Below are positions 8,905-38,936 of a stretch of 64,000 nucleotides of DNA, one piece after another. The position numbers and the translations under genes are program-made. Below the pieces are notes generated by a model. The model was not told the DNA's origin. It made no database searches and saw only the letters and a list, made by a program, of their open reading frames with translations. The first letter of the stretch is position 1. Each line of letters begins with the position of its first letter. The DNA comes from Alistipes sp. (GTDB taxonomy: Bacteria > Bacteroidota > Bacteroidia > Bacteroidales > Rikenellaceae), in contig JAJQED010000023.1 of NCBI GenBank assembly GCA_021201825.1, positions 62,001 through 126,000 of the forward strand, written 5' to 3'.

Positions 8905-10083
8905 ATGGAATTCGATTTCGACAAAGTGGTGGACAGGCAGCATACTTCCTGTTACAAGTGGGACAAAAGGACCGAGCTTTTCGGCCGCAGCGACGTGATC
9001 CCGATGTGGGTCGCCGATATGGATTTCGAGGTGGCTCCATGTATCACCCGTGCCATTAAAAACCGTGCCGAACAGGCCGTATACGGTTACGATTTCAGGG
9101 ACGAGCGGTTTTTCGGTGCCGTGCGTAACTGGCTGGCGGCCCGCAGCGGCTGGCAAACCGAGGCCCAGTGGATGGTATATACTCCCGGCGTCGTTTCCGG
9201 CCTTGTTTTTTCCCAGCGGGCCTTTTCCAAAAAAGGGGAAAAAGTGGTGATCCAACCGCCCGTTTACCCTCCTTTCGCAGGCACGGTCCGTGAAAACGGC
9301 CGTGAGCTGGTGGAGAATCCCCTTGTGGTGCGGGACGGCAGATTCGAGATCGATTTCGACGACCTGGATGCCAAACTCGAGGGAGCCAGTATATTCCTGC
9401 TTTGTAACCCGCACAACCCCTCGGGCCGGGTATATACCCGTGCGGAACTGGAAAAGATCGCGGAACTGTGCATTAAGCACGACGTTGTGATCGTGGCCGA
9501 CGAGATCCATTCGGACTTGGTATTCAACGACCACAAACATATCCATATCGCCTCGCTCTCCCCACAGGTCGCCGCCCGTACGGTCACTCTGCTGGCCCCG
9601 AGCAAAACGTTCAACATCACCGGGCTGTGCACATCGGTAGCGATAATTTCCGACGAAAAGATGCGCAACCGGTTTGCCGCGATACTTGCCGCTACACATA
9701 CCATCGAAGGTAACACTTTCGGAAACGTGGCCCTTACGGCCGCCTATGAAGAGGGAGCCCCCTGGCTCGATGAGCTGCGCCCGTACATTTACGGCAATTA
9801 CGAACTCGTACGGGATTTCATAGCGGAAAACATTCCCTCCATTGGCACCTACCCGCTCGAGGGGACCTACCTGATGTGGCTGGACTTCTCGGCCTGGAAC
9901 ATGACCGGGGAGCAACTCCAGGAATTCCTCTCCCTCCAAGCCGGCCTCGGGCTCAACGACGGCCGCACATTCGGCCGCCAGGGTCTCCATCACGCCCGGA
10001 TGAACCTCGCTACCCGAAGACCCATGATCCGTCAGGCACTCGAACAACTCCACCGGGCATGTCTATCCCATAAACTGGTATAG
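8905..10083 (+). CDS. MalY/PatB-family PLP-dependent C-S lyase (cystathionine beta-lyase-like)
   Basis: Fold-type I PLP enzyme, 392 residues, likely cleaving C-S bonds of cystathionine or related cysteine conjugates to thiol, pyruvate and ammonia. Family signs in order are PMWVADMDFEVAP (residues 33-46), CNPHNPSGRVYTRAELEKIA (168-187), VADEIHSDLVF (198-208; Asp199 pairs with the PLP nitrogen) and the PLP lysine Lys234 in APSKTFNITG. Length equals the usual 390. The start at 8905 (MEFDFDKVVD) is set by the promoter at 8834-8865 and by family alignment. MalY members can also have regulatory roles; the true substrate is open. Confidence 0.9.
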   Translation: MEFDFDKVVDRQHTSCYKWDKRTELFGRSDVIPMWVADMDFEVAPCITRAIKNRAEQAVYGYDFRDERFFGAVRNWLAARSGWQTEAQWMVYTPGVVSGLVFSQRAFSKKGEKVVIQPPVYPPFAGTVRENGRELVENPLVVRDGRFEIDFDDLDAKLEGASIFLLCNPHNPSGRVYTRAELEKIAELCIKHDVVIVADEIHSDLVFNDHKHIHIASLSPQVAARTVTLLAPSKTFNITGLCTSVAIISDEKMRNRFAAILAATHTIEGNTFGNVALTAAYEEGAPWLDELRPYIYGNYELVRDFIAENIPSIGTYPLEGTYLMWLDFSAWNMTGEQLQEFLSLQAGLGLNDGRTFGRQGLHHARMNLATRRPMIRQALEQLHRACLSHKLV

Positions 10084-10159
10084 GAAAGTTTAATTTCTTT
10101 CTTCTATCTCCGTGCGCGACCGTCCGGGTAAACCCGAAAGTTCGCGGTTGCTGTCCAAA

Positions 10160-31986: not shown

Positions 31987-32778
31987 ATGCCGGAAAGGAA
32001 AAAAGAAGCGTTCACAAGGTTACTCGATGTAATGGACGAACTGCGGGAAAAATGCCCGTGGGACCGTGAACAGACGATGGAATCCCTACGCAACTGCACT
32101 ATCGAGGAGACCTATGAACTGGTCGATGCCATCATGGAAATGGACTATGACGGTATCAAACAGGAGTTGGGAGACCTATTGCTGCATGTAGTTTTCTATG
32201 CGAAGATCGCCGACGAACAAAAGCGGTTCGACATCGCCGACGTTATCGATTTCCTGTGCGAAAAACTTATATACCGCCATCCTCATGTTTTCGGCACGGT
32301 GAATGCCGATAATTCCGGAGAGGTGAAATACAACTGGGAGCAGCTCAAACTCAAGGAAAAAAAGCGCAAAAAAGGGATACTTGGCGGCGTACCTAAGAGC
32401 CTGCCGGCCATGGTCAAGGCTTACAGGGTCGGCGAAAAGGCGGCGTCGGCCGGGTTCGACTGGGAAAAGAAAGAGGACGTTTGGGATAAGGTCCGGGAAG
32501 AGTTCGGGGAGACAGAACAGGAGATCCGCCGCATTACTGATACGGAAAGCAATAAGGCCCGGCTCGAAGAAGAATTCGGGGACCTGTTCTTCTCGCTGGT
32601 AAATGCGGCCCGGTTGTACGGGGTCGACCCGGAGATGGCCCTCGAAAGTTGCAACAAAAAGTTCATCGGCCGGTTTAACCATGTGGAACGACAGGCCGAA
32701 AAGGGCGGCAAGTCAGTAAAGGAATATTCCCTCCAGCAGCTGGAAAGCTGGTGGCAGGAGGCCAAGCAAACGGAATAA
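31987..32778 (+). CDS. mazG: Nucleoside triphosphate pyrophosphohydrolase MazG
   Basis: Hydrolyses non-canonical or excess NTPs to NMP and PPi. The 263 residues contain two tandem MazG folds. The first has CPWDREQTMESLRNCTIEET with the metal-binding E-x-x-E...D pattern continuing into LVDAIME and ELGDLLLHVVFYA; the second has REEFGETEQEIRR and LEEEFGDLFFSLVNAARL. The C-terminus LQQLESWWQEAK is typical. Length matches E. coli MazG (263). The gamma-carbonic-anhydrase-like gene starts 14 bp later, so the two are likely an operon. Confidence 0.95.
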   Translation: MPERKKEAFTRLLDVMDELREKCPWDREQTMESLRNCTIEETYELVDAIMEMDYDGIKQELGDLLLHVVFYAKIADEQKRFDIADVIDFLCEKLIYRHPHVFGTVNADNSGEVKYNWEQLKLKEKKRKKGILGGVPKSLPAMVKAYRVGEKAASAGFDWEKKEDVWDKVREEFGETEQEIRRITDTESNKARLEEEFGDLFFSLVNAARLYGVDPEMALESCNKKFIGRFNHVERQAEKGGKSVKEYSLQQLESWWQEAKQTE

Positions 32779-32792
32779 GAAAAATAACGGAT

Positions 32793-33308
32793 ATGGCACT
32801 TATAAAAAAAGTAAACGGCGTAGGGCCCCGGATCGGGGAGCGGGTATTCCTGGCCGAAAACGCCTCGATAATCGGTGACGTGAAGATCGGTGACGACTGC
32901 ACGGTTTGGTACAACGCGGTGATCCGTGGAGACGTTAACCCTATCGAGATCGGGGACCGGGTCAATATACAGGACGGAGCCGTACTTCATACGTTATATA
33001 AAAAGTCGGTAGTAAAGATCGGTAACGACGTTTCTATAGGACATAACGCCATTATCCACGGGGCTTGTATCGAGGACCGTTGCCTTATAGGCATGGGAGC
33101 TACTTTGTTGGACAATGTGTTGGTGCGCAGCGGGTGTATCGTCGCGGCCAATGCAATGGTGCTGGCGAACACTGAGCTTGAACCCAACAGTGTTTATGCC
33201 GGCATTCCCGCCCGAAAGGTAAAGGAGGTCACCCCGGAACAACGGACCGACATTATCGAACGCACGGCCCGGGATTATATAATGTATTCTTCCTGGATCG
33301 AGGAGTGA
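32793..33308 (+). CDS. Gamma-carbonic-anhydrase-like left-handed beta-helix protein
   Basis: 171 residues of hexapeptide repeats of the PaaY/YrdA/CaiE type. Repeat turns can be read through IIGDVKIGDDCTVWYNAVIRGD, with IGDRVNIQDGAVLH and IGNDVSIGHNAIIHG. The three metal-binding His are conserved (one in AVLHT, two in GHNAIIHG), as expected for a trimer with Zn or Fe at subunit interfaces. Family members are often isolated with mild or no anhydrase activity. The ATG at 32793 is chosen because upstream codons overlap mazG. The kinase operon with its operator begins immediately after the stop. Confidence 0.88.
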   Translation: MALIKKVNGVGPRIGERVFLAENASIIGDVKIGDDCTVWYNAVIRGDVNPIEIGDRVNIQDGAVLHTLYKKSVVKIGNDVSIGHNAIIHGACIEDRCLIGMGATLLDNVLVRSGCIVAANAMVLANTELEPNSVYAGIPARKVKEVTPEQRTDIIERTARDYIMYSSWIEE

Positions 33309-33317
33309 GCCTCCGGA

Positions 33318-33390
33318 GTCGGTTGACCCCCCAATTTTGCCGTTTCACCCGCCCTAACACCCAAACGCACAACAGTATGAGGTATATTTG
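33318..33390 (+). promoter_or_regulatory. Candidate LytTR operator and promoter of the kinase-regulator operon
   Basis: Two direct repeats, GTCGGTTGACC (33318-33328) and GCCGTTTCACC (33339-33349), repeat with a 21-bp period and a CCCCAATTTT spacer. Exactly 33 nt later lies TATATTTG (33383-33390), a consensus -7 box with no -33 TTG. Paired direct repeats on one helix face are the usual binding site of LytTR regulators. The same arrangement is found at 35306-35378. Confidence 0.7.
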
Positions 33391-33412
33391 CTCAGTTAAA
33401 CCCTTTGCAAAG

Positions 33413-34486
33413 ATGAACGGCATCAACAAATACCGGGCGGTGTTCATCAACCTGCTCACAGCTATCGGCATCAGCCTGATAGCCAATTTCAATTTCTTCC
33501 TGATACGGCTTATGCCCGAGCCTCCGGGTGGTTACAGGGGCTGGATGCGCCAGTTCATGGAATCGGATTTCATCCTTTGGATGAACTTCTTTTTCTACCT
33601 GCTGTTCGCCCTGATCATGCTCTCGATACTCACGAGCAGCATGCAGCGGAAAAAGATAAATTTTTTCTGGCGGGGGACCATTTGTATGGCCGTAGCGGTG
33701 GTTTTCTATTTCCTATCGCCGTCATTCCACCATAAGACCGGGGAGATATTCCTGCTTATTAACGGGCGCAACCTTTTCGACCCGTCGGTACTGACCAAAC
33801 TCTCTTTTACACTGATAATCACCTTACTCTACGGCAAGATATTCCAGCTGATCTACCAGAAACAGAGCGTACAGCTGGAGAACGAACTTCTTAAGAACGA
33901 GAACCTGCAGGCAACTTACAACACTCTTATCAACCAGATAAACCCCCACTTCTTTTTCAATTCGCTCAACTCCCTGTCGATGCTGGTCCGTGAGAAATAC
34001 AACGAACAGGCCCTGACATACATCGACAGGCTCTCGGAGACGTTCAGGTACATAATTCAAAACGGCCAGAGCGGAGGAACGACACTCGAAGAAGAATTGA
34101 AATTCGTGGACGCATACAAATATCTGCTGGAAGTCAGGTATGACGGTAAACTTTTCTTCGATATAGACGTCGCACCGGAATACCTCGGGTGGACTATGCC
34201 GTCCCTGACTATCCAACCTCTTATCGAAAATATTGTTAAGCACAATGTTATTACCCGCAAACAGCCCATGCGGGTCTCGATAAGTACCGACTCAGGATCG
34301 CTGTTGGTCAGAAATCCTGTATATCCCAAAATCCATGACGGGGACCCGACCGGGATCGGTCTGCAGAACCTTTCGCACCGTTATAAATTGTTGACCGGCC
34401 GGGATATAACCGTCACTAACGACGGGCAGAAGTTCACGGTAGAACTGCCGCTCACCGAACCGGAAAAAGAACTGGAACTGCAATGA
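33413..34486 (+). CDS. LytS/YehU-type sensor histidine kinase
   Basis: Membrane-bound sensor kinase of a LytTR two-component system, 357 residues from the ATG at 33413. Four hydrophobic helices lie in the first 170 residues (AVFINLLTAIGISLIANFNF, then FILWMNFFFYLLFALIMLSI, among others) with no large periplasmic sensor. A short coiled segment precedes the His_kinase domain, whose phosphorylated His is in NQINPHFFFNSLNSLS. The ATPase part shows QPLIENIVKHN (N box) and GIGLQNLSHRYKLL (G box). Frames extend upstream to 33305, but the -7 box at 33383-33390 makes those starts unlikely. The stop overlaps the regulator start (ATGA). Confidence 0.93.
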   Translation: MNGINKYRAVFINLLTAIGISLIANFNFFLIRLMPEPPGGYRGWMRQFMESDFILWMNFFFYLLFALIMLSILTSSMQRKKINFFWRGTICMAVAVVFYFLSPSFHHKTGEIFLLINGRNLFDPSVLTKLSFTLIITLLYGKIFQLIYQKQSVQLENELLKNENLQATYNTLINQINPHFFFNSLNSLSMLVREKYNEQALTYIDRLSETFRYIIQNGQSGGTTLEEELKFVDAYKYLLEVRYDGKLFFDIDVAPEYLGWTMPSLTIQPLIENIVKHNVITRKQPMRVSISTDSGSLLVRNPVYPKIHDGDPTGIGLQNLSHRYKLLTGRDITVTNDGQKFTVELPLTEPEKELELQ

Positions 34487-35271
34487 CGACAATATTACCG
34501 ACTGGAAACAGGATGAGGGTGTTAGTGGTCGAGGACGAGACCGCCGCTACGGTCAACCTGCTGTCGATGCTGAACGAAGTTTGCCCTGATTGCAAGATAA
34601 CGGGGACGCTTGAGAGTGTGTCGGAAACGGTTTGCTGGCTCGAGGGGAACGATCCGCCCGACCTTATCTTTATGGACATCCACCTTGCCGACGGGGATGC
34701 GTTCAGAATATTCGACAATATTGAAGTGACAGCTCCGGTAGTATTCACTACCGCCTACGACGAGTATGCCCTCGAGGCGTTCCGGGTAAACAGCATCGAT
34801 TACCTGCTGAAACCGATCAAACCGTCCGACCTAAAACGGGCCATCGACAAATTCGGCAGGCTAACCGGCTCGGCACGAAAAAATTATACCGGGCGCCTGA
34901 ATAATATGCGCGAATCCCGGCAACGGACGTTCCTGTTACAGCTCCGGGATAAGCTCGTGCCGGTTAAGGCCGAAGAGATAGCTTTTTTCCATACGGCGGA
35001 CGAGAAAGTCAAAGTCCACACCCTCAAAGGCGAAGCTTTCCCCTACGATAAATCCCTCGACACGGTAATGGCCCAACTGCCGGAAGAGCTTTTTTTCAGG
35101 GCTAACCGGCAGTACATAATATCGCGAAATGCGGTACGGGATATCTCCGTATGGTTCGGAAGCAGGTTGAATTTAAACCTGAAAGTGGAAGTTCCCGAGC
35201 GCATTATCATCAGTAAGGCCCGTGTGCCGGTCTTTAAAAAGTGGATCGGCGAGGGGACGGGCATAGAATAA
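34483..35271 (+). CDS. LytTR-family response regulator
   Basis: 262 residues. The receiver domain starts MRVLVVEDETAATVNL with the acidic pair, the phospho-acceptor Asp in LIFMDIHLADGD, Thr in FTTAYDEYALEAF and Lys in YLLKPIKPSDL. The C-terminal LytTR DNA-binding domain runs from about residue 150 (RTFLLQLRDKLVPVKAEEIAFF) through FRANRQYIISRNAVRDIS to the end. Such domains bind paired direct repeats. The ATG at 34483 overlaps the kinase TGA (ATGA), so expression is coupled; the second Met (34513) is a possible alternative. The likely targets are the two repeat sites at 33318 and 35306. Confidence 0.94.
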   Translation: MTTILPTGNRMRVLVVEDETAATVNLLSMLNEVCPDCKITGTLESVSETVCWLEGNDPPDLIFMDIHLADGDAFRIFDNIEVTAPVVFTTAYDEYALEAFRVNSIDYLLKPIKPSDLKRAIDKFGRLTGSARKNYTGRLNNMRESRQRTFLLQLRDKLVPVKAEEIAFFHTADEKVKVHTLKGEAFPYDKSLDTVMAQLPEELFFRANRQYIISRNAVRDISVWFGSRLNLNLKVEVPERIIISKARVPVFKKWIGEGTGIE

Positions 35272-35305
35272 CCGCGGTTTACCAATCCGCCCACCCCCGG
35301 CAGAG

Positions 35306-35378
35306 GCCGTTTCACCCCCCGGTTTTGCCGTTTCACCGGTTTTCGGGGAAAAACGCAGGCTAAAGGAGATTATATTTG
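35306..35378 (+). promoter_or_regulatory. Candidate LytTR operator and promoter of the Spy-like gene
   Basis: Two perfect direct repeats GCCGTTTCACC (35306-35316 and 35327-35337) with a 21-bp period and spacer CCCCGGTTTT, then exactly 33 nt to TATATTTG (35371-35378). The 32-bp block matches the one at 33318-33349 at 27 positions, and the distance to the -7 box is the same. No -33 TTG is visible, as expected for activator dependence. Confidence 0.75.
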
Positions 35379-35427: not shown

Positions 35428-35940
35428 ATGAACAGGAAAATCAAATCTATGCTTGCTACGGCAGCAATAATGGCCGCAGTGATCACGGTCAACGCACAAC
35501 CGCCGCACGAGGGGCAGCAAAGGCAGTCACCGGAAGAGAGGCAGCAGGCGATGGTCGAAAGGATGGCTGAAAAACTCGGACTTACCGAACAGCAACAGAA
35601 ACTGATAATCGAACTGCACAAGGAAATGACTCCCGAACGCGGAGAAAGGCCACCGAGGCCCGAGGGTCCAAAAGCCGAAAAACCCGATCGTTCTTCCAGA
35701 GAGGAGATGGAAAAACGCAGGGAGGAGATAAAAGCCGAGATGGAAGCCCGCATGGCCGACTTCGAAGCCAAGATGAAGAACATCCTCACCCCCGAGCAGT
35801 TCGAGCAGTGGAAAGAAGACAGGGGAAAAATGCAGGAACGCAGGCCCGAGGCCCGTCGAAACGACCGCAGGGGACCGCACGGCGAACCGCGCAAAGCCGC
35901 TCCGCACGAAAAGAAAGATAACGAAGAATACAAAGGCTAA
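35428..35940 (+). CDS. Spy/CpxP-like (LTXXQ) periplasmic protein
   Basis: 170 residues: a signal peptide ending at VITVNAQ (about residue 23) and a mature part that is almost all charged helix. Two LTxxQ-type motifs are visible, LGLTEQQQKLII (about 50) and ILTPEQFEQWKEDRGKM (about 120), the hallmark of the Spy/CpxP fold used by metal- and stress-responsive periplasmic chaperones. Linker and tail are rich in Pro/Arg/Glu (RPPRPEGPKAEKPDR; RRNDRRGPHGEP). It is the first gene behind the second LytTR-type operator. An imperfect terminator follows, then the barrel gene, so downstream read-through is likely partial. Confidence 0.8.
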   Translation: MNRKIKSMLATAAIMAAVITVNAQPPHEGQQRQSPEERQQAMVERMAEKLGLTEQQQKLIIELHKEMTPERGERPPRPEGPKAEKPDRSSREEMEKRREEIKAEMEARMADFEAKMKNILTPEQFEQWKEDRGKMQERRPEARRNDRRGPHGEPRKAAPHEKKDNEEYKG

Positions 35941-36062: not shown

Positions 36063-38936
36063 ATGAAAAAAATTATTCTAACCGCCTTTCTCGTGATCTG
36101 CACGGGAAGTTCCCTTTATGCACAAAAGGGAGCCATCCGGGCGACCCTGCTCGACAGGTCTACCGAAGAACCGATCGCCGGTGCGGTCGTATCCGTCCGC
36201 AGCCAGAGGGATACGACCCAGGTAAAATATTTCACATCGGTTTACCAGGGGGCCGTCACCATGGCCGACCTGGACTACGGGGACTATACCGTAACATTTA
36301 CATTCCTTGGCTATAAGGACGAAGTTAAGAACGTCAAGGTAAACAAGGCGAGCGTCAATCTCGGGAAGATATACATGGCCGAGAATGCAACCCTGATAGA
36401 TGCCGTGGTGACGGAGGCGCAGGCCATCCGTACGTCACAGCGCGGGGATACGGTCTCCTACAATGCGGACGCTTACAAAGTTGCCCGTGACGCTGATGCC
36501 GAGGCCCTCCTGTCGAAGATGCCGGGCATTACGGTGATCGACGGGGAGGTGGAAGCCCAGGGCGAGACCGTCGGGAAGATATTCGTGGACGGCCGTGAAT
36601 TTTTCGGTCAGGACGTAAGTACGGCGATCAAGACCCTGCCGGCCGAGATGGTAGCCAAAGTCGAAGTATACAATAAACTGAGCGACATGGCCGAGTTCTC
36701 CGGCGTGGACGATGGGGAAGGATTCAAGGCGATCAATATCGTTACCCATGCCGACAAGCGCAGCGCCAAGTTCGGGAAGATGTACGGGACGTGGGGTATC
36801 ACGGATAAATACGACGCCGGGGTCAATCTCAATATCTTCGGGGACCACAGGTTCACCATCCTCGGGATGGCAAACAATATAAACAAACAGAATTTCTCGG
36901 TGGAGGATATCCTGGGCGCGGTTTCGGGCGGTTCGGGCGGCATGTCCTCGCGCGGGGGCGGCAATATGCGGTTCGGCGGTAACGCCCGCAACTTTATGGT
37001 GGGCCAGCAGGACGGCGTATCGCAGGTGCAATCGCTCGGGTTGAACTACGGGGGTACATGGGCGAAAAAGATTGAGGTAGAGGGCAGCTACCTTTTCTCC
37101 AACTCGCGAAATAAATACTGGAGCGATACCGACCGGGAATATATAAACCAGTACGCGTGGCTCGACACATTGTCCTCGACCCGGTGGAGCAAGAACCAGG
37201 AACACCGGTTCAACCTGCGGATGGACTATAAGATCAGCGACAACCACCAGCTGATGATGCGTCCCTCGTTCAGCATACAAAGCTACCGCAACGAGAACCT
37301 TACCCATACCGACCGCTACGAACCCGACGGGGACGATTACGTACGGTACTATGACTATACCCTGTCCAACCTTGGAAAGAACTGGGGATATAACATCGGT
37401 AACTCGCTTACCTACCGTGTACGACTCGGGAAAGCCGGGAGGACCATCGTCACGGACCTTAGCGGGAATTATTCTAAAAACGACCGCGAAAGTTCCAGCA
37501 TAAACAATACCCTCTATGCCGACGGCCAAAGGGAAATAGTCCGGGATACTACTCTGAACTACTCAAAGAGCTACACCCTGCGCGGCAGCATAATGTATAC
37601 CGAGCCGATCACACAATTTTCCCAGCTTACGGCCCAATACCGCGCGGATTACCGCTATTCGGACGCTGACCGCCAGCGTTACAACTGGGACGATGCGCTG
37701 CAGGCGTACGAAGATTTTTACGACGTAGACTACTCCAATATTTACAACAGCGGTTACCTGACCCAGCGGGTAGGCCCCGGTTATAATTACCGGAAAGACA
37801 AAACGAGCGTCACCGTCAATGTGGAGTACCAGCGGTCGAACCTGCAAAGCGAGCAGGAATTCCCGGCCATCGGCGACCTGAAATACAACTTCGACAATAT
37901 TGTCTATTTCTCACGGTTGGAGCACTCGTTCAACCAGGAGAATACCCTGCGGGTTTTCGCCCGGTCGTCCACCTCCAATCCGTCCATATCGCAACTGCAG
38001 AACGTCTTCGACATTTCCAATATCCAGAACGTGACCGAGGGAAACCCGGACTTAAAGCCGAGCTACCAACACAGCCTCATGGCAAACTACAACCGATCGG
38101 TGGTATCGAAAGGGAGTACGTTCATGGTGATGGGTCATTTCACGGTCACGGACAATTACATCGGCGAGAGGGTCACCGTTTCCGACGGCACCAACGTACT
38201 GCTCCCGGACAATACATATCTCCAAATGGGCAGCCAGTATAAGACGTATGGAAATATGAGCGGATACTGGAACGCCATGCTGGGGATGAACTACGGCTTC
38301 CCGATCAATGCCCTGCGCAGTAACTTCAATGTGAATGTAAACGGGCGCGTTCTACAGGAACCGAGTATCCAGGACGGCCATAAAAATACGCTGTTCAGCC
38401 AATATTACAACGCCGGGATCGTGATCGGCAGTAATATAAGCGAGAACCTGGACTTCACGCTAATGTACAACGGAGGATACAGTTTTGCCAAGAACTCGAT
38501 CACTTCGAACAACGAGTCCGTTGTGCACTACGCTTCGATCCGTTTCAAATGGGTAACATGGGCCGATTTCACTTTCTCGGGCAACGGTTCGCTGTCGGTC
38601 AATAAAGGTATCACGCAGGATTATACGGACCGCAACTATATGCTCAACCTGGCCCTCGGCAAGAAGATATTCCGCAACCGCCGCGGCGAGATCACCCTCG
38701 GGATCAACGACGTTTTCAACCAGAAAACCGCATTCCGCCGCACGGTAACTACCAATTACATCGAGAATGTAAAGTATAACACCCTCGGCAGGTATTACGC
38801 GCTTCAGTTCGTATATAACCTGCGCGCATTCAAAGGCAGTCCCGGCAATGCCTCCGGCTCACCGGACAAGCTTCGCGGTCCCGGCGGACGGATGGGACCT
38901 CCCCCGGGAGGCGGCCCCCCTCCGGGAGGGTTTTAA
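36063..38936 (+). CDS. Outer-membrane beta-barrel protein with carboxypeptidase-like N-terminus (TonB-receptor-like)
   Basis: 957 residues with signal peptide (TAFLVICTGSSLYAQ). An N-terminal CarboxypepD-regulatory-like beta-sandwich follows (IRATLLDRSTEEPIAGAVVS... YTVTFTFLGYKDEVKNV, residues 25-100), then a plug-like region (GDTVSYNADAYKV, MPGITVIDGEVEAQGE, KIFVDGREFFGQD) and a long barrel of aromatic-ended strands of the OMP_b-brl_3 type. The tail is unusual: Gly/Pro-rich with repeats (PPPGGGPPPGGF) instead of the usual C-terminal aromatic strand. No SusD partner is present. It has no good promoter of its own and probably depends on transcription from the Spy-like gene. Substrate unknown. 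Confidence 0.88.
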   Translation: MKKIILTAFLVICTGSSLYAQKGAIRATLLDRSTEEPIAGAVVSVRSQRDTTQVKYFTSVYQGAVTMADLDYGDYTVTFTFLGYKDEVKNVKVNKASVNLGKIYMAENATLIDAVVTEAQAIRTSQRGDTVSYNADAYKVARDADAEALLSKMPGITVIDGEVEAQGETVGKIFVDGREFFGQDVSTAIKTLPAEMVAKVEVYNKLSDMAEFSGVDDGEGFKAINIVTHADKRSAKFGKMYGTWGITDKYDAGVNLNIFGDHRFTILGMANNINKQNFSVEDILGAVSGGSGGMSSRGGGNMRFGGNARNFMVGQQDGVSQVQSLGLNYGGTWAKKIEVEGSYLFSNSRNKYWSDTDREYINQYAWLDTLSSTRWSKNQEHRFNLRMDYKISDNHQLMMRPSFSIQSYRNENLTHTDRYEPDGDDYVRYYDYTLSNLGKNWGYNIGNSLTYRVRLGKAGRTIVTDLSGNYSKNDRESSSINNTLYADGQREIVRDTTLNYSKSYTLRGSIMYTEPITQFSQLTAQYRADYRYSDADRQRYNWDDALQAYEDFYDVDYSNIYNSGYLTQRVGPGYNYRKDKTSVTVNVEYQRSNLQSEQEFPAIGDLKYNFDNIVYFSRLEHSFNQENTLRVFARSSTSNPSISQLQNVFDISNIQNVTEGNPDLKPSYQHSLMANYNRSVVSKGSTFMVMGHFTVTDNYIGERVTVSDGTNVLLPDNTYLQMGSQYKTYGNMSGYWNAMLGMNYGFPINALRSNFNVNVNGRVLQEPSIQDGHKNTLFSQYYNAGIVIGSNISENLDFTLMYNGGYSFAKNSITSNNESVVHYASIRFKWVTWADFTFSGNGSLSVNKGITQDYTDRNYMLNLALGKKIFRNRRGEITLGINDVFNQKTAFRRTVTTNYIENVKYNTLGRYYALQFVYNLRAFKGSPGNASGSPDKLRGPGGRMGPPPGGGPPPGGF

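Follow-up and report, generated by a model that had tools for sequence, protein, structure and literature searches.

Direct-repeat operators of a putative LytTR two-component system linked to envelope genes in Alistipes and other Rikenellaceae

Introduction

Few described operators of LytTR regulators were found for the Bacteroidota, and the nearest published site found in the phylum is that of the LytTR Regulatory System (LRS)-like operons of Bacteroides. There, 11-bp direct repeats (TCCGGTATTCA-11 bp-ACCGGAAATCA) lie upstream of TAnnTTTG promoters in B. thetaiotaomicron and B. ovatus, and autoactivation is presumed (PMC6193735). According to the same source, HdrR and LRS are further LytTR regulators whose direct-repeat binding sites lie ahead of weak promoters. 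A more distant parallel is AgrA of Staphylococcus aureus, a response regulator with receiver (REC) and LytTR domains, which binds two direct repeats at agr P2/P3 and activates the weak promoters downstream of them (PMC4227749).

In Escherichia coli, spy, the gene for a periplasmic protein of the Spy family, is under two-component control by CpxAR and BaeSR (cited in PMC13114119), and in Phocaeicola vulgatus CirYZ offers an example of a Spy-like gene as a stress target in gut Bacteroidales (PMC13114119). Both P. vulgatus spy genes reside in sigma/anti-sigma operons, the only form of control described for spy genes of gut Bacteroidales (PMC13114119), so that control by a LytTR regulator would represent a separate wiring.

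Herein we analyse a locus from an Alistipes sp. genome in which a kinase gene and a Spy-like gene are each preceded by a block of direct repeats, with a LytTR regulator encoded in between. The term window denotes the whole stretch of DNA that was analysed, which is 64 kb in length. The kinase/REC-LytTR pair of the window distinguishes it from the LRS-like operons, whose products are an NfeD/DUF2154 membrane protein and a LytTR regulator that itself spans the membrane (PMC6193735); AgrA differs in its use of peptide quorum sensing, sigma-A promoters and other targets.

Gene content of the locus

The features of the locus are as follows, all on the forward strand.

31987..33308: genes for a MazG-like and a hexapeptide (LbH) protein; upstream, syntenic, and not proposed targets
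33318..33349: putative operator 1; half-sites 33318-33328 (GTCGGTTGACC) and 33339-33349 (GCCGTTTCACC), period 21
33383..33390: -7 element of the kinase promoter, TATATTTG, 33 nt past operator 1
33413..34486: sensor histidine kinase (Pfam His_kinase PF06580, E 4.8e-21)
34483..35271: response regulator, REC + LytTR (Pfam LytTR 7.8e-18, Response_reg 6.3e-13)
35306..35337: putative operator 2; half-sites 35306-35316 and 35327-35337, both GCCGTTTCACC, period 21
35371..35378: -7 promoter element of the Spy/outer-membrane protein unit, TATATTTG, 33 nt past operator 2
35428..35940: Spy/CpxP-like exported protein (DUF4890 2.8e-12, LTXXQ 3.1e-06, both over the Pfam cut-off)
36063..38936: outer-membrane beta-barrel protein (OMP), CarboxypepD_reg + OMP_b-brl_3 (Pfam 2.6e-21)

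The kinase has approximately four transmembrane helices by hydropathy and no large extracytoplasmic domain, and its motifs are intact, with an NPHF H box as well as N and G boxes; the H-box motif points to His179 as the phosphoacceptor. In the response regulator, both the REC and LytTR domains score above the Pfam cut-off, with Asp65 as the probable site of phosphorylation, and the statement in the initial annotation that a LytTR protein is encoded between the two repeat blocks is thereby borne out. Orthologues of this regulator occur in 82 of 120 family genomes. Membership of the LRS class was considered and rejected, as the partner is a His_kinase rather than a membrane inhibitor protein, and the regulator possesses a REC domain.

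The Spy-like protein contains two LTxxQ motifs and reaches 28.3 bits for LTXXQ against a Pfam cut-off of 24.3. It is a relative of enterobacterial Spy and not an orthologue, since the NCBIfam Spy equivalog returns 31.9 bits against a cut-off of 174. A profile of 35 proteins encoded at this position in relatives (Spy-slot proteins) has the Spy chaperone as its best match among solved structures (4e-06), with CpxP at 0.011-0.017, and 23 of the 35 match DUF4890. Single-sequence AlphaFold models were poor for the Spy-like protein (pLDDT 63, pTM 0.28), and the model of the OMP was likewise poor (pLDDT 45.8). The family profile of this latter protein, which has a Gly/Pro-rich C-terminus, matches the TonB-linked receptor 9gbc (1.4e-09) over the N-terminal 250 residues, and an orthologue or paralogue of it is found downstream of the operator in relatives. 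The MazG-like/LbH gene order is kept in L008-L014 and most family loci, the closest named relatives at the locus are Alistipes MAGs, and PADLOC returned nothing meaningful.

Two repeat blocks with fixed promoter geometry

The coordinates of the blocks, the 21-bp period, the 33-nt gap to TATATTTG and the 27/32 identity between blocks 2 kb apart were all exact on recheck. Each block had also been described as two 11-bp direct repeats, which is accurate on the Spy side, where the halves of operator 2 form a perfect repeat (11/11), and holds more loosely on the kinase side, where the halves of operator 1 (GTCGGTTGACC and GCCGTTTCACC) are degenerate (8/11 identical). When both strands of the window were scanned without bias for any pair of 11-mers at least 8/11 identical, with a period of 21 and lying 32-33 nt before TAnnTTTG, only operators 1 and 2 emerged, against a chance expectation of 0.015 per mononucleotide shuffle of one strand. 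Across the whole genome (G000, 2.84 Mb), the repeat pair with up to three mismatches occurs exactly twice, both times at this locus; the reversed pattern gave 0 matches in the same genome.

Conservation was evaluated in 57 Rikenellaceae loci that have an orthologous LytTR regulator no more than 1.5 kb away from the OMP gene. An operator with TAnnTTTG is present upstream of the OMP transcription unit in 44 of these, and there are 48 operator-plus-promoter sites in total, compared with 0 in either the reversed or the reverse-complement control; with the matrix used, which was built from the first sites (28 seed half-sites, partly of the same clade), no recognisable operator was found in 13/57. 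Operator 2 retains its position just past the stop codon of the regulator in most relatives. In 221 loci (1.77 Mb), 141 distinct half-site pairs have a period of 21 and 41 a period of 42, and all other periods from 12 to 63 have at most 10 pairs each. For 69 of the 105 last half-site pairs, TAnnTTTG starts 32 or 33 nt downstream, and for none does it lie in the 90 nt upstream. Alignment of the sites gives a half-site consensus of G[TCG]CG[TG]TTCACC, commonly with a third, weaker half-site a further 21 bp upstream. The TAnnTTTG columns of the resulting logo were required by the scan and so are not independent, the independent evidence being the period and distance scan of the 221 loci.

The possibility that the two blocks reflect chance or a recent local duplication devoid of function draws on their 27/32 identity, but this identity ends at the half-sites and spacer, and dozens of loci, against 0 control matches, share the geometry despite spacers that have diverged. 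Duplication without function is already refuted by these comparative data, and we consider that the explanation can safely be set aside.

The initial annotation had further noted that the promoters lack -33 elements. This stands: no TTTG/TTG is recognisable in either 33-nt gap of the window, and no such box is conserved in 46 aligned relatives, the logo of which holds zero information at that position. Herein lies a difference from the LRS-like operons, for which a -33-like element and a period of 22 are listed; the distance from repeat to -7 box, about 34 nt by the table of that paper, is by comparison similar (PMC6193735).

A probable activator of promoters that lack a -33 box

Based on their conservation, their linkage to the regulator, their constant spacing relative to the -7 box and the lack of a -33 box, both blocks are putative operators of the LytTR regulator encoded between them. 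The comparative data support this reading, and the initial interpretation as a whole in part. An activator that contacts polymerase would need an arrangement of this kind, in which 32-33 nt separate the proximal half-site from the -7 box and a -33 box is missing. Our main interpretation, to which we assign a probability of roughly 80 %, is that the kinase and LytTR regulator form a two-component system that activates envelope-maintenance promoters lacking a -33 box. The membrane kinase, with little extracytoplasmic sequence, would sense a condition of the cell envelope and phosphorylate the regulator, which would then bind direct half-sites of the form G[TC]CG[TG]TTCACC, two or often three in number, set 21 bp, or two helical turns, apart. 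The gap of 32-33 nt between the proximal half-site and TAnnTTTG, the -7 box of Bacteroidota, would let the bound regulator stand in for the absent -33 contact in recruiting RNA polymerase. Within the genome, candidate targets comprise the operon of kinase and regulator, which would give positive feedback, the Spy/CpxP-like and OMP genes, and a TolC-HlyD-MacB export operon considered below.

Some LytTR proteins repress, and the geometry alone would be compatible with regulator dimers beside the promoter that block RNA polymerase until a signal relieves them. We regard this as very improbable, however, because the sites stop 32-33 nt short of the -7 box, outside the core promoter, because a promoter with no conserved -33 element should be weak when unaided, and because spacing locked to 32/33 nt is typical of polymerase contact.

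Association of the operator with the regulator

Of the 27 sites that carry 0-1 mismatch in the 120 family genomes, 16 fall within 6 kb of an orthologue of the regulator, compared with about 0.6 % by chance; the orthologue is present in 38/40 genomes with sites (0-2 mismatches) and in 44/80 others, counts that are uncorrected for relatedness and incompleteness. Furthermore, G001, a member of the genus, has neither a match to the regulator nor sites. The location of the operator also shifts with the target, such that where the OMP gene directly follows the regulator gene, the operator is often upstream of the kinase instead.

Real operators could nevertheless be bound by a different regulator, such as a LytTR paralogue or an OmpR-type protein near the efflux operon. 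The genome has LytTR (PF04397) hits at five places, the efflux operon adjoins an OmpR-type kinase/regulator pair, and the same motif also lies next to a distant LytTR pair in L131. Set against this are the clustering of strong sites at orthologues of the regulator and their co-occurrence with it, the absence of both from G001, and the fact that no such sites were found at the other LytTR-family hits of the genome, whilst OmpR-type sites would not be expected to track a LytTR gene. We thus view binding by another regulator as improbable, and favour the LytTR protein of the locus.

With regard to L131 (G044), the region in question (L131:3045-3850) encodes a different LytTR kinase/regulator pair, the regulator being 37 % identical, and the operator of the same type lies after the stop codon of the regulator, with 33-nt spacing, before a small possible lipoprotein. 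Specificity may be shared between LytTR paralogues in such a case.

Autoregulation and the conserved target

That the locus is autoregulated had been proposed from the two blocks, and a search of relatives for the motif, found upstream of most Spy/OMP units as given above, did not extend this to the kinase, upstream of which an operator is present in only 9/64 loci. The kinase gene is preceded by a counterpart of operator 1 in L135, L163, L126, L167, L173, L176, L185 and L197. The nine loci comprise those of the window's genus (the window, L135 and L163) plus six in which the OMP gene starts about 110 nt or less after the regulator, and in these six no separate OMP promoter was seen. Autoregulation therefore fits the window's genus and loci where kinase, regulator and OMP form one operon, but is not a conserved feature. 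With an operator in so few loci, kinase-upstream autoregulation is, on comparative grounds, lineage-specific, and positive feedback is likely in the window's genus and optional elsewhere. The conserved target is the OMP-containing unit, in which a Spy/CpxP-like (DUF4890) gene usually comes first, and the rule that fits the data places a predicted operator upstream of this unit, with the Spy-like gene first when present.

Separately, L188, L198 and L199 harbour a gene of 302 aa between regulator and OMP, the product of which in L198 matches phosphodiesterase/alkaline-phosphatase families; no kinase was found adjoining the regulator in these three loci.

Further putative members of the regulon

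A degenerate search of the window's own genome returned a third operator, located elsewhere (C33).

C33:225424-225516, reverse strand: third operator; half-sites TCCGGTTCACC, GCCGATTGGCG and ACCGGTTGGTA, with TAAATTTG at 32 nt
L256:4918-9399 (own genome, C33), reverse strand: TolC-HlyD-ABC-MacB operon, preceded by the three-half-site third operator

The pattern used was loose, with 4 matches versus 4 in the control, such that the score alone is weak; support comes instead from the orthologous efflux operons of G002 and G004, in which three half-sites and TAAATTTG are again in this position, with diverged spacers. The third operator immediately precedes a TolC-family gene, with genes for an HlyD-family protein, an ABC ATPase and a MacB permease next in order. 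As the operon is just downstream of the OmpR-type kinase/regulator pair, it may be doubly controlled. In relatives, unlinked operators precede DUF4890/Spy-like genes (L130, L148 and L132) and an RND pump (L118), and in G006 a second, unlinked target unit (L147:2247-5990) consists of an operator, a 185-aa secreted protein and a 1004-aa OMP_b-brl_3 protein. The content originally assigned to the locus, namely sensor, regulator, Spy-like protein and outer-membrane barrel, agrees with Pfam, but falls short of the full regulon: as predicted from the shared operator, this is larger than the locus and includes the efflux operon.

The regulon would probably serve envelope protection or maintenance, with the Spy-like protein acting as a chaperone or metal binder; a role in envelope stress is suggested by the target families only. 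Pump genes are also part of the CpxAR/BaeSR regulon, although those systems use OmpR-type regulators and classical kinases, and their DNA site is unrelated to the LytTR operator described here. It is conceivable, at a little under even odds, that this is a Rikenellaceae-wide envelope-stress regulon under one LytTR system, in place of Cpx/Bae, which switches on an outer-membrane barrel, tripartite efflux pumps and Spy-like proteins, some of the latter with Cys repeats reminiscent of metallothionein, from promoters where two or three half-sites take the place of the -33 element.

Several proteins in the Spy slot deserve separate mention, as they carry long tandem repeats rich in Cys and Lys.

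L120:3870-4805, Cys/Lys-repeat Spy-slot protein
L121:4198-5010, Cys/Lys-repeat Spy-slot protein
L123:3982-4701, Cys/Lys-repeat Spy-slot protein
L125:4075-4830, Cys/Lys-repeat Spy-slot protein

In these four, which have a lipobox-like signal, an N-terminal helix is followed by an inserted Cys/Lys array (KKAECNKADCKKDC...) and then by a C-terminal LTPEQ helix; they may represent a periplasmic metallothionein-like variant of Spy. Together with the Cys/His-rich tails of many other Spy-slot proteins, the matches of 3/35 to Metal_resist, and the presence of the same operator at RND and TolC/HlyD pumps, they raise the alternative that the Spy-slot protein is mainly a periplasmic metal binder and the regulon one of metal homeostasis or detoxification rather than general envelope stress, which would be compatible with the operator mechanism. 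We deem this rather unlikely, in that the window's own Spy-like protein has no Cys and no His-rich tail, the DUF4890 family that predominates is functionally uncharacterised, and the Spy-slot profile best matches a chaperone. Envelope maintenance remains the preferred reading.

Relation to published work and reach beyond the family

A LytTR two-component system with a direct-repeat operator is of an already known kind. The regulon itself is apparently undescribed, as no description was found in the papers searched, which covered LytTR in connection with Bacteroides, Alistipes, Porphyromonas, Spy or DUF4890. The site G[TC]CG[TG]TTCACC, with its 21-bp period and 32/33 nt to TAnnTTTG, is predictive, allowing regulons to be read from sequence, and bears on promoter activation without a -33 box as well as on the envelope-stress response in gut relatives of Alistipes.

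Under a strict pattern, sites occur in 69/120 family genomes, with few in the reversed control. The same pattern at the level of the order yields mostly AT-rich, chance-like matches, few of which adjoin a kinase/LytTR pair (L226, L231 and L224), and distant loci (n=73) gave 11 real matches versus 1 in the control. Beyond the family, conservation is accordingly claimed at low frequency and for the predicted geometry only. One Flavobacteriaceae LytTR locus, L074, holds three operators of the same geometry (L074:4328-4480 and 10033-10090), two of which are divergent and precede the kinase region, with the third 4 kb downstream.
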